Below are positions 1,693 to 22,568 of a DNA stretch of 43,280 nt, one piece after another. This stretch comes from Gammaproteobacteria bacterium (lineage in GTDB: Bacteria > Pseudomonadota > Gammaproteobacteria > Arenicellales > Poriferihabitantaceae). Within the stretch, counting starts at the first letter, position 1. Every line of letters starts with the position of its first letter. The position numbers were made by a program, and so were the translations under genes. The notes under the pieces were generated by a model. The model was not told where the DNA came from. It searched no databases and was given only the letters and a program-made list of their open reading frames with translations. The stretch is from assembly GCA_030590945.1 (NCBI GenBank), contig JAUVBY010000008.1, forward strand, positions 1 through 43,280, given 5' to 3'.

Positions 1693-3102
1693 TTAAAGTG
1701 GTGTCAGCTCAGCTGGAATTGCATGAACCAGTGTTGTTTTTCCCAGTGCATCGCGAATGGCACCCTGTAGCGCCTCTTCGAATACCGGATGATAAAAAGG
1801 GAAGCGTAGCATTTCCTGCAGACTCAGGTTTTGCTCCAGACACCAGGCGATCAGGTGGGCCAGATGTTCAGCGCGGGGCGCTACCATACTCGCACCTAAC
1901 AAAGTACCGTGCTCCTTATCCGCATACAAATGAATCAAGCCCCGGTTGTTGCCCATAACGAGCGCGCGGCCGTGCGGACCCATCGCAAATTTACCGGTAA
2001 CAATCCCGGCTTCATCCAGTTGATCCGGGGATTGTCCAACCTGACAAATATTCGGCTCACTGAAGGTGATGTGTAAAGGAACATAGCGTTTAAATTCACT
2101 GAGTGTACCCGTACCCGCATTGTGACCGGCAATTTTTCCTTCATAGGAAGCTTCATGCAGTATCGGCGCATCTACGTTAACATCGCCGGCCAAAAAGATA
2201 TGCGGTGCTTCTTTAAGCGCCATCGTATGGATATCGTAGGCGGGCAAACCCTGATCATCAAGCTGTATTCCCAGATTTTCAAGCCCGACCCGATCAATGT
2301 TTGAACGACGCCCGATGCTTACCAGCACGCGTTCTACGTCAAATTGTTGATCGCCTGCCGTGACCCGAATCAGTTCACCCACTTTTTCAAGTTCAGCGGT
2401 TTGCCCGAGGATAAGCGGAAATTCTTTCTGGATAAGATCGATCGCACAACGATTGATTTCAGGATCTTTCAGGCCGGCAATGGTGGTAAGCTCATCGACC
2501 CCGATGACATCAACACCCAATTGGCTTAGCGCCTGCCCCAGTTCCAGGCCGATGACCCCCAGGCCGATGACGGCCATCGATGCGGGTAAGTTTTCCTGCT
2601 CAAAAAAACTGTCGGTGGTAAGAACCTGATCACCCAGACTCTGCCAGGCTTCAGGTACCACAGGCCTGCTGCCGGTAGCGATGATACATTTATCAAACCC
2701 TACGGTCTGATTACCCAATTGCAGGGTGTGGGCGTCGACAAATAGGGCAAATTCATTCACAAACTTATCGCCCATCTTATCGATGGAATTACTAAGTACC
2801 CGGTCGACCAGGATGTCCCTGACGTCCTGTACTCTTTCCATTACTGCAGCGCTATCAATGCTAAGGCTTTCACTACCTTGTATACCTAGTTTCTGAAATT
2901 GTTTCCGCGCGTGAAAATCTTCAGCGATATGAATCATGGCCTTGGAGGGCATGCAGCCAACGCGAGCACACGTGGTACCAAGTTCGTCTTCTGCGGCGCC
3001 GTCTATCAGCAAAAAGTTTTTTGTGTGGCGACGAACCTGCCCCAGTGCATTGAGGCCTGCCGTGCCCGACCCAAGTATGGCGATATCCAGATGGTGACTC
3101 AT
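1693..3102 (-). CDS. dihydrolipoyl dehydrogenase-like flavoprotein disulfide reductase
   Basis: The 469-residue protein is a class I pyridine-nucleotide disulfide oxidoreductase. It shows an N-terminal FAD-binding GSGTAG motif (11-16), the redox-active pair C45 and C50 in TTCARVGCMPSK, an NAD-binding AVIGLGVIGLELGQ segment (about 177-190), and near the C-terminus the HPVFEEAL segment that supplies the catalytic His-Glu pair. Known enzymes of this type transfer electrons from a dithiol to NAD+ via FAD. The TTCARVGC variant recalls the Lpd3-type proteins of pseudomonads rather than the housekeeping E3 (usually TCLNVGC). No E1 or E2 subunit gene is nearby, so its dithiol substrate is open. It lies 69 bases downstream of the fructosamine kinase gene on the same strand. 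Confidence 0.88.
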   Translation of the reverse strand: MSHHLDIAILGSGTAGLNALGQVRRHTKNFLLIDGAAEDELGTTCARVGCMPSKAMIHIAEDFHARKQFQKLGIQGSESLSIDSAAVMERVQDVRDILVDRVLSNSIDKMGDKFVNEFALFVDAHTLQLGNQTVGFDKCIIATGSRPVVPEAWQSLGDQVLTTDSFFEQENLPASMAVIGLGVIGLELGQALSQLGVDVIGVDELTTIAGLKDPEINRCAIDLIQKEFPLILGQTAELEKVGELIRVTAGDQQFDVERVLVSIGRRSNIDRVGLENLGIQLDDQGLPAYDIHTMALKEAPHIFLAGDVNVDAPILHEASYEGKIAGHNAGTGTLSEFKRYVPLHITFSEPNICQVGQSPDQLDEAGIVTGKFAMGPHGRALVMGNNRGLIHLYADKEHGTLLGASMVAPRAEHLAHLIAWCLEQNLSLQEMLRFPFYHPVFEEALQGAIRDALGKTTLVHAIPAELTPL

Positions 3103-3171
3103 TTTCTATTTTAGTGCGTATGGCTAAAGAATCAGGACTATACGTAAATTGCGTCTGTCAGTAAATGTCTG

Positions 3172-4056
3172 TTAGCCAAGTTCACTTAACAGAATAAGAA
3201 TCATTTTATGCGCCTGGTCAGCGTAAGAACCCCCAAACAAATTGAAATGGTTGAGTATATGGTACAGGTTGTAAAAGGTTTCACGGGTAGCGTAGCCTTC
3301 GCGAAGCGGATAGGCGGCCGCATAGGCTGTGTAAAATTCAGGTGGTGCCCGACCGAAGAGAGAGGTCATTGCGATATCGGTTTCACGGTCTCCGAAATAA
3401 TGTGCAGGATCAAATATGACCGCCTTACCCGATTCATTGAAGCCCCAGTTGCCCTGCCATAAGTCTCCATGTAAGCACGAGGCTTTGGGGGGCACATCAA
3501 ACAGCGCTTCAAATTTTTCGTTAAGACGTAGACCATCTTCTATCAAAGCAGAGGGTGCATTATTTTTATGCGCGAGTTTCAGTTGAAAGCCCAGGCGATG
3601 GGTTCGCCAGAAATCAAACCAGCTATTTGACAAAGTGTTACGCTGCGGGGTTATGCCTAGTGTGTTGTTGAAGTCGGCGCCAAAATCTGCTTGTTGATAG
3701 TGATGTAATTCAGCGAGTTGCCGGCCAAAAGAACGATAGTTTGCAGCAGACCCTTCGCGTTGTAAATTAAGTGCCTGCAAGGCGATAAAAGATACCTTTT
3801 CACTGATCCCGGTACACAATACAACAGGGCTCGAAATAGTGCCTGTATTCGCTATGGCAGATAGTCCGGCGGCTTCTGCTTTAAACATCTCAATATGATT
3901 GCGAAGATGAATTTTTATAAAAATTTGTAGCCTGTGAGACCCAAGCAAAAAACTGGAATTTATACTGCCGCCAGAGACGCGCCTGATGTGGCGTGCATCG
4001 GGCGACAGCCCTGTACCCTGTTGGATTTGGTCCAGGATATCAGGCCAGTTATTCAT
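3172..4056 (-). CDS. fructosamine kinase family protein
   Basis: The 294-residue protein belongs to the fructosamine/ketosamine-3-kinase family, which phosphorylates sugar adducts on protein lysines so that they fall off, a deglycation repair step in the cytoplasm. Visible are the N-terminal GGSINSSF nucleotide loop (29-36), the FIKIH lysine region (46-50), the catalytic LHGDLWQGNW block (195-204, with D198 and N203) and the metal-binding FDPAHYFGDRE segment (215-225). Its length is typical. It is transcribed away from priA and is probably followed in the same transcript by the flavoprotein gene. The natural substrate is not evident from sequence. Confidence 0.9.
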   Translation of the reverse strand: MNNWPDILDQIQQGTGLSPDARHIRRVSGGSINSSFLLGSHRLQIFIKIHLRNHIEMFKAEAAGLSAIANTGTISSPVVLCTGISEKVSFIALQALNLQREGSAANYRSFGRQLAELHHYQQADFGADFNNTLGITPQRNTLSNSWFDFWRTHRLGFQLKLAHKNNAPSALIEDGLRLNEKFEALFDVPPKASCLHGDLWQGNWGFNESGKAVIFDPAHYFGDRETDIAMTSLFGRAPPEFYTAYAAAYPLREGYATRETFYNLYHILNHFNLFGGSYADQAHKMILILLSELG

Positions 4057-20424: not shown

Positions 20425-21534
20425 TCAGGCATTCAAACCCTGTTGTATCACGCCGCCGCCCAGGCAATGATCTTCGCTGTAAAACACAAGTGACTGGCCC
20501 GGCGCGATGGCGCGCTGGCTATGCACGAATTCGACCTTGGTGTGCGTATTGCTATACGCCGTAAGCAAACAGGCCTGATCAGCCTGTCGGTACCGCGTCT
20601 TGGCGGTGCAGTACAACGGCAGAATGGGGGGGTGTTTGCCTACCCAGGTTGGTGTCTCGGTTATGACAATCTGTTTGTGCAAAGCCGGGTGGTCGTGTCC
20701 CTGCACCACATAAAGCAAATTTTTATCTACATCTTTACTGGCCACGAACCAGGCTTCTCCAGTATCGCTTTGAGTATCCAGTCCGCCAATTCCAAGGCCG
20801 CCTCGCTGACCAATGGTGTAGTACATAGCACCGCTGTGCGTACCGATGGTCTCGCCTTCCAGTGTTTTAATTTCGCCGGCCTGAGCGGTTAGATACTGAT
20901 TAAGAAAATCCTTAAAGCGCCGCTCACCGATAAAACAGATGCCCGTTGAGTCTTTTTTGCCCTGCACGCTCAAGCCCAGGTCGGCGGCTTTCGCGCGCAC
21001 ATGAAACTTAAGCAGGTGGCCGATTGGAAACAGTGTTTTCTTAAGTTCCTCCTGGCCAAGGGTGTAAAGGAAATAGGATTGGTCTTTTTCAGGATCGGCG
21101 CCTTTTTTCAGACTCAGCCGATGATCTAACACACCGGTTTGTGCATAGTGTCCGGTGGCAATGTAGTCAGCGCCCAGCCATATTGCCCAATCCATGAAGG
21201 TTTTGAACTTTATTTCCCGGTTGCATAAAATATCAGGGTTGGGGGTGCGGCCTGTTTTGTATTCTCGAAGAAAGTGGACAAATACATTCTCCCAGTATTC
21301 ATGTGAGAAATTGACTGTTTCGAGCGGAATTTCAAGCGTGTCGCAGACCTCCTCTGCATCAGCAAGATCTTGTTCAGCCGCACAATACTCGGGATCATCG
21401 TCCTCCTCCCAGTTTTTCATGAACAGGCCAACCACATCGTAACCTGCTTCAAGCAAGAGCGCAGCCGAGACCGCCGAATCGACACCGCCGGACATGCCGA
21501 CAATGACCCGTCGTCCGTTATTAGTTTTCCACAT
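20425..21534 (-). CDS. mnmA: tRNA-specific 2-thiouridylase MnmA
   Basis: The 369-residue enzyme adds sulfur to uridine 34 of tRNA Lys, Glu and Gln, using ATP and sulfur relayed by the Tus proteins. It has the PP-loop SGGVDS (15-20), the catalytic cysteines C104 ([11 protein letters not shown]) and C200 ([11 protein letters not shown]), and the TGHYAQ and DQSYFLYTL segments. The length is normal. The start codon abuts a transposable element: only the duplicated TA separates it from the repeat end, so its leader and ribosome site (GAG, nine bases upstream) now come from the element. Before the insertion the upstream gene's stop would have overlapped this start as TAATG. Confidence 0.97.
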
Positions 21535-21801
21535 TAGTGTCGTCTCAATGTAATAGTGCTGGTTCAGTTAGATTGTCAACGTTCACGGCAAGGCACAGCT
21601 TGCAGATAATGGTCGCTCCCTTTTCAAAAGGTGTAACGCAGACCGTGGGCGTTGACAGTCTAACCCGAAGGGCCTGCCTGTGGTGTCCCGCCGCCGCGTA
21701 GCAGTGTTTGACAAGGGAGCGACCATTGTCTTCACACTGCGCCTTGCGGCGAAACACCACAGGCAGGCTGAATCCAGTATTATTACATTGAGACGACACT
21801 A
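21535..21801. mobile_element. 263-bp MITE with TA duplication (IS630/Tc1-mariner type)
   Basis: The element spans 21537-21799. Its ends are perfect 19-base inverted repeats (GTGTCGTCTCAATGTAATA at 21537-21555 and its complement at 21781-21799). They extend inward imperfectly to about 33 bases (CTGG-TTCAG against CTGGATTCAG). A TA dinucleotide flanks each side (21535-21536 and 21800-21801), the target duplication typical of IS630/Tc1-mariner transposases. Two internal hairpins fill the middle: 21567-21588 with 21643-21664 (19 of 22 matching), and a long one in 21672-21768 with perfect 15-base outer arms. A 15-base inverted pair (21608-21622 and 21713-21727) links the two halves. No reading frame for a transposase is present, so it would need one in trans. 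Confidence 0.88.
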
Positions 21802-22473
21802 CTTAAATATCCTGCTGAAAAAGGACGCAGTTTTTTCAGGTTTAACCTGCGAGCTATCAAGGTTGGCGGTGAAAAATATGTTGATATTCTCCCACTCTTC
21901 GTTTTTTTGAACGTAAGGTAGATAACCATTGTTTTGAAACCACGAATCAATTACCCAACGTTCGCCGCTGTCCAGGACTTCAATTTGCCCGGCCCAGTGT
22001 TGATCCAGGATAGCGCGTCGATATGCTCTATCGACGACTTTATGATATTTAAGCAAATCATTTTGCTCAAATAATTTTAGATAAGTAGTGGTATTGAGTG
22101 ATTCGTCTATGCAATCGAGTTGCCCCGGAAATTCGACATCCAGGTCTGCCAGATCTCCCCCAACATCACGATGCGTGGGGGTATGCCGGCCCACAATGAC
22201 TTCCATCCAGCCAATGGCTTTTTTGATGTTTAGACGTTCGCCCTCAGCATCACCTACTGGCTGGCGCAACCAGTTAGCAATACTGTCCCATTCTTCCGGG
22301 CTAATGGAAATTATTTGTTTGTCTCTGCAGCTGAAATTCATGCATACAGGAATATGGTCTATGCCAGTGGCTGGCGTTTCGGCCCGAGGCGCAGAATAAG
22401 GTAATAGCGTAATCAACAAAACCGCGATTCCAGATATAATACCTGAAGTTTGATGGCCGGGTAGCGATGGCAT
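21799..22473 (-). CDS. hypothetical exported or membrane-anchored protein upstream of mnmA
   Basis: The 224-residue protein begins with a hydrophobic segment (about residues 9-30, GIISGIAVLLITLLPYSA) followed by PRAE, so it is probably exported. The mature part has no family I recognise. Notable stretches are HIPVCMNFSCRDKQ, ISPEEWDSIANWL, PGQLDCIDESLNTTTYL and ERWVIDSWFQNNGYLPYV, with four cysteines that may pair. I use the ATG at 22473, which has an AGGA site ten bases upstream. A longer TTG-started frame reaches 22506. The stop codon TAG is formed by the TA duplication plus the first base of the mobile element. The original stop would have been TAA overlapping the mnmA start. Confidence 0.78.
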   Translation of the reverse strand: MPSLPGHQTSGIISGIAVLLITLLPYSAPRAETPATGIDHIPVCMNFSCRDKQIISISPEEWDSIANWLRQPVGDAEGERLNIKKAIGWMEVIVGRHTPTHRDVGGDLADLDVEFPGQLDCIDESLNTTTYLKLFEQNDLLKYHKVVDRAYRRAILDQHWAGQIEVLDSGERWVIDSWFQNNGYLPYVQKNEEWENINIFFTANLDSSQVKPEKTASFFSRIFK

Positions 22474-22568
22474 GAAGCGAGAGTCCTGCAATTTGAGAGA
22501 GTACAAGTATAAATTGTAGCGCTGTCCTCGTCAAAAATAAGCCTGAATATATGCAACTATTTTATAGC

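Follow-up and report, generated by a model that had tools for sequence, protein, structure and literature searches.

How can an insertion enter the junction between two neighbouring genes and leave both of them readable? The question is raised by a 263-bp element that lies between mnmA and the conserved hypothetical gene upstream of it, in a window (the whole stretch of DNA that was analysed) of 43,280 nucleotides. An insertion that falls in an overlapping or tight operon junction would be expected to do damage, and the family to which this element belongs suggests an avoidance rule, by which the termini remake the stop codon and supply a ribosome-binding motif. The element is probably a copy of a widespread, IS630-like MITE family of ~264 bp with translation-compatible ends; by restored stop and substitute ribosome-binding motif, this family is likely to have split tightly packed genes repeatedly without breaking them. 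Features are listed in the table.

Table 1. Coordinates of the element upstream of mnmA, its parts and neighbours, and the other copies in the same genome
Feature	Position	Strand	Remarks
mnmA (tRNA 2-thiouridylase)	20425..21534	-	Pfam confirms
Conserved hypothetical gene	21799..22506	-	TAG stop now uses first element base
MITE body, 263 bp	21537..21799	-	family member, nhmmer 257 bits; right end GACGACAC toward mnmA
Left terminal inverted repeat GTGTCGTCTCAATGTAATA	21781..21799	-	with its first G, TA becomes the upstream gene's TAG stop
Right terminal inverted repeat TATTACATTGAGACGACAC	21537..21555	-	adjoins mnmA ATG
TA, presumed target duplication, side of upstream gene	21800..21801	.	
TA, presumed target duplication, side of mnmA	21535..21536	.	
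Hairpin A, module with GGTGTTTCGCCGCAAGGCGCAG...	21674..21766	-	coordinates approximate, from alignment columns 35-131
Mini hairpin GCCCTTCGGGT	21663..21673	-	almost invariant across family
Hairpin B (GTTAGACTGTCAACG...CGTTGACAATCTAAC)	21569..21662	-	coordinates approximate
Possible outward promoter TTGACA-18-TATTAC toward mnmA	21550..21579	-	weak; sequence inspection
Stranded AGGA, putative native mnmA Shine-Dalgarno (SD)	21810..21813	-	now beyond far side of element
C163 copy (G000:C163, L197)	3000-3165		diverged, internally deleted; between sensor kinase and response regulator
C183 copy (G000:C183, L328)	about 2950-3211		full-length

The element is short and non-coding and carries terminal inverted repeats, as a MITE does. 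Its 19 terminal bases are inverted copies with no mismatch and TA stands on both flanks, as had been claimed from the sequence alone, and the sequence junctions agree with an original prediction of a MITE-like insertion that broke neither reading frame and replaced the leader of mnmA. On the minus strand the upstream gene ends in ...AAG TAG, made of the TA at 21801-21800 and the G at 21799; this stop was not preserved by luck, because the element starts with G, and TA plus G is TAG in the frame of that TA. The mnmA ATG (21534-21532) was kept two bases beyond the element and is backed by the MWK N-terminus of the congener, and the AGGA lies 10 nt before the rejoined ATG. The flanks of the site are GTA and TAA, and it is thus not CTAG. 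The element was folded at -146.7 kcal/mol (shuffles -82.0 +/- 5.4; z -11.9). Its right-end tip reads TTGAGACGACAC where the family consensus is TTGAxGGAGCAC, so that a weak GAG alone remains; since this copy lost the GGAG (TTGAGACGACACTAATG), mnmA may be poorly initiated or may depend on the weak GAG. The outward promoter proposed toward mnmA was not called by the automatic promoter scan. The arms GTTAGAT/GTCTAAC resemble attC cores, and an integron attC site was considered and rejected by eye, the orientation being reversed.

For the state of the junction before insertion, it had been proposed that the stop of the upstream gene and the start of mnmA shared a TAATG overlap, with translational coupling of the pair. 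The arithmetic of this proposal is correct: TA flanks the element on both sides, the rejoined sequence is AAG-TAATG-TGG, preceded by AGGA at 10 nt, and a like event is proven in sister strains described below. The ancestral state itself found no support, because in 22 element-free relatives the spacer to mnmA is 15-218 nt (50 nt in the nearest congener) and the TAATG junction occurs in 0/22; a normal spacer in relatives free of the element is what the prediction had itself named as evidence against coupling. The TAATG at mnmA is therefore a reconstruction from one sequence, and ancestral coupling is, in our judgement, slightly more doubtful than plausible. In congener G002 the homologue of the upstream gene is present but mnmA is not next to it, and no mnmA comparison is available there. 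The hypothetical gene gave no Pfam match. Across the order it is conserved as a neighbour on the upstream side of mnmA, immediately adjacent in most of the relatives examined, and its protein is a possible functional partner.

Insertion of the mnmA type was observed directly in two sister strains of Sedimenticola hydrogenitrophicus (L089/L239), of which SN1189 carries the empty site GGGCAGGATCTATAGTCATG and SB48 the filled site CTATAG-element-TAATCATG. The empty strain reads ...GGG CAG GAT CTA TAG TC ATG and the filled strain CTA TAG(TGTTCC...GGAGCAC)TAATC ATG, with the insertion at the TA of the stop; stop and start are both intact, and the native AGGA is found on the far side. At a second empty site in a sister strain (L109/L242), filled and empty sequences differ by a few bases, and at a third locus (L101/L237) a 59-bp remnant was retained in the sister strain.

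A search with the core pattern gave 72 places in named genomes, and a profile search gave 94 distinct full-length copies of ~264 bp in 85 flank clusters, with terminal ends of about 18-24 bp. Hosts are Nitrosomonas marina, Sedimenticola hydrogenitrophicus, tubeworm endosymbionts, Thiohalobacter and many other Gammaproteobacteria. In a class-wide sample, for which two candidates per genome were scored, 61/369 genomes gave a match, at least 19 of these near full length, and many of the weaker matches are a ~55-bp core common to other elements. Dispersed copies in such number, together with filled and empty sister sites, are again what is seen with MITEs. TA was present on both sides of 36/94 copies, as at mnmA, and missing on at least one side, mostly one side only, in 58/94. 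No match to the element was found with Rfam covariance models at the gathering threshold, and none to the family in plasmid, phage and viral-contig searches or in 5,426 complete E. coli genomes.

In the genome that holds the mnmA locus, three family copies were found, the others being on contigs C163 and C183. The original prediction had relied on further occurrences of the exact 19-base end, of which there is none elsewhere in the genome, even with up to 3 mismatches allowed; this was the wrong test, because the tips vary between subfamilies and the body is conserved, and what the genome does hold are diverged family members. In the C163 copy the first ATG of the regulator (MNT...) lies inside the element tip. 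The same kinase/regulator junction in congener G002 is a 4-nt overlap, ATGA, which favours the view that a coupled pair was parted at this locus. In the C183 copy the downstream start lies 4 nt beyond the right end, and the upstream frame enters the element for about ten codons; the neighbours, named by eye, are an AlaX-like gene upstream and an Fe-S oxidoreductase-like gene downstream. The right end is thus at the start codon of a co-directional gene in 3/3 own-genome copies.

Start-codon bias was measured with gene starts taken from ORF calls (ATG only, >=90 codons) and not from annotations, and the expectation came from intergenic TA sites matched within each locus. In 18/75 clusters an end lies <=8 nt before the ATG of an outward ORF, where 5.5 were expected (P about 5e-6), an outcome robust to settings. 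The bias was replicated with loci from previously unused genomes, at 8/22 versus 1.5 expected (P 5e-6; the own-genome C183 copy is included in these 22). A native SD appears to be stranded on the opposite flank in 15/23 start-adjacent clusters versus 14/124 control flanks (P 1.4e-7; replication 7/13 versus 7/38, P 0.02). Tips with GGAG/AGGA abut an ATG more often than other tips (18/67 versus 17/167, P 0.002), and the spacing from tip GGAG/AGAG to ATG peaks at 7-8 nt. A co-directional upstream ORF also ends at the element for 22/35 start-adjacent ends, and in 14 of those 22 its stop consists exactly of TA and the element's first G, the arrangement seen at mnmA. Starts are faced by the right end in 24 cases and by the left in 11 (P 0.04). 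Nitrosomonas marina copies seldom abut starts, so that the bias depends on the subfamily, and differences between genomes could account for part of it.

On the mechanism that we propose, the element would enter at a TA in tight gene junctions, often within the upstream stop codon and often between SD and start codon of the downstream gene. TA and the G of the element would re-make a TAG for the upstream gene, and the GGAG/AGAG of the tips, which lies about 3-5 nt inside the edge, would usually give the downstream ATG an SD-like motif again, at 7-8 nt; at mnmA, the insertion supplied a new leader of 263 bp. The tip motif is probably used as SD in place of the stranded one, and tolerance of translation would explain the start bias. 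In the full-length readthrough transcript the tip is predicted to be fully paired, so that the mRNA would hide the tip SD in the terminal stem; it could therefore serve only if initiation took place inside the element or the RNA were cleaved. A broader proposal is that the ends form a portable intercistronic junction, composed of a stop-making G, an SD-like tip (possibly with a promoter) and a selected RNA hairpin, which colonises tight operon junctions and rewires coupling genome-wide; we hold this tentatively, at a little under an even chance.

The bias could also arise by plain survivorship, if an ordinary MITE entered any TA, non-coding insertions survived, and the GGAG of the tip were a coincidence with no role in translation. 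Copies are indeed essentially restricted to sites between ORFs, and many are far from starts, above all in Nitrosomonas marina; but the bias is still 3- to 5-fold when intergenic TA sites from those very loci serve as the reference, and SD-like tips exceed other tips at starts with canonical spacing, which makes survivorship as the sole cause improbable. Less probable still is that the start-adjacent layout came from local deletions or rearrangements after insertion and not from direct entry between SD and ATG: the many copies without a clean TA pair, the L109 site a few bases off its empty site and the internally deleted copies (L237, C163) would fit this, but L089/L239 is a clean insertion and the stranded SDs lie <=20 nt into the far flank.

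Pairing within the element is conserved: 32 diverse copies were compared, 96.7% of their paired cells pair, and changes on both sides were seen in 62/88 pairs versus 34 in shuffles, a strong covariation overall. Read on the strand that runs toward the right end, hairpin A departs from Watson-Crick pairing by G-U in 126 cells and by A-C in 7 (25 versus 5 pair columns), which indicates RNA-level selection. The terminal stem (A-C 24 versus G-U 9) and outer hairpin B (A-C 7 versus G-U 2) have no G-U preference, as would be expected if their symmetry is maintained in the DNA. The family might accordingly be kept mainly as an RNA element (an RNase III-processed mRNA hairpin or a leader regulator), with proximity to starts as the product of regulatory selection. 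The covariation and the asymmetry of hairpin A, on the strand toward the end that more often faces starts, argue for such a role; the lack of asymmetry in terminal stem and outer hairpin B, the many copies with no downstream gene nearby and the missing Rfam match argue against it, and as the main explanation we consider it unlikely, if the most serious of these three. Entry at tight junctions with translation-compatible ends is the reading that we prefer. From subfamily to subfamily the two ends of each copy change in step (alignment A1, columns 1-24 against 249-272), and mismatched intermediates are few, as if the ends were kept identical at the DNA level.

IS630 elements prefer CTAG as target. 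The same preference was found here: of the 94 copies, 38 have CTA at the left flank and 43 have TAG at the right. The family is like IS630-family/Tc1-mariner-like non-autonomous elements in being short, with terminal inverted repeats, no functional ORF and, on both sides in 36 of the 94 copies, TA at the ends. It differs from IS630-family MITEs in its covarying symmetric modules, in a body conserved across genera, in SD-like tips that also regenerate the stop, and in that no autonomous partner was found. An IS630-type transposase with matching ends had been anticipated and did not turn up: the transposase domain DDE_3 is present in 4/9 genomes, these genes are few and their ends differ, with matching ends at none of them in the 9 genomes, and pattern searches for family ends at transposase spacing were negative. 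The element was presumably moved by an absent transposase.

Correia/NEMIS elements of Neisseria are palindromic, TA-inserting MITEs near genes that are reported to supply promoters and RNase III sites; as far as the Rfam search shows, the present family is apparently unrelated to them in sequence and host range, and it differs in the translation signal proposed at its tip. ERIC sequences of enterobacteria are palindromic intergenic repeats of 127 bp that insert at TA and are co-transcribed within operons, whereas the present family measures ~264 bp and is absent from the complete E. coli genomes searched. The pneumococcal BOX, RUP and SPRITE repeats are small, folded, interspersed and putatively mobile; they are over-represented between convergent genes, RUP at 50-150 bp from genes (PMC3049150), whereas the present family is enriched at start codons. 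MITEPsy1 of Pseudomonas syringae is likewise short and inserts into CTAG or YTAA, and one of its copies lies 14 nt before a start codon, but it differs in size (100 bp), in its 4-nt duplication and in its kinship to the IS5-type ISPsy2 (PMC3189936). The family was not described in the literature searched and is apparently undescribed until now, a novelty that is provisional because coverage was partial.

If the preferred reading is true, it explains how coupled gene pairs can be parted without gene loss, filled and empty sister strains become natural replicate experiments on translational coupling, and translation initiation signals join promoters and terminators, whose carriage on small repeats is already known.

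The inner ~55-bp core was also seen in repeat families with other arms and ends (L042-L046 in G094; many in G100/G101), which suggests modular exchange of cores between MITE families. Nitrosomonas marina (G102) carries many solo 35-bp palindromes that consist of two overlapping element ends (e.g. C34:40393-40427 and C54:22645-22679) and are apparently minimal derivatives of the element.
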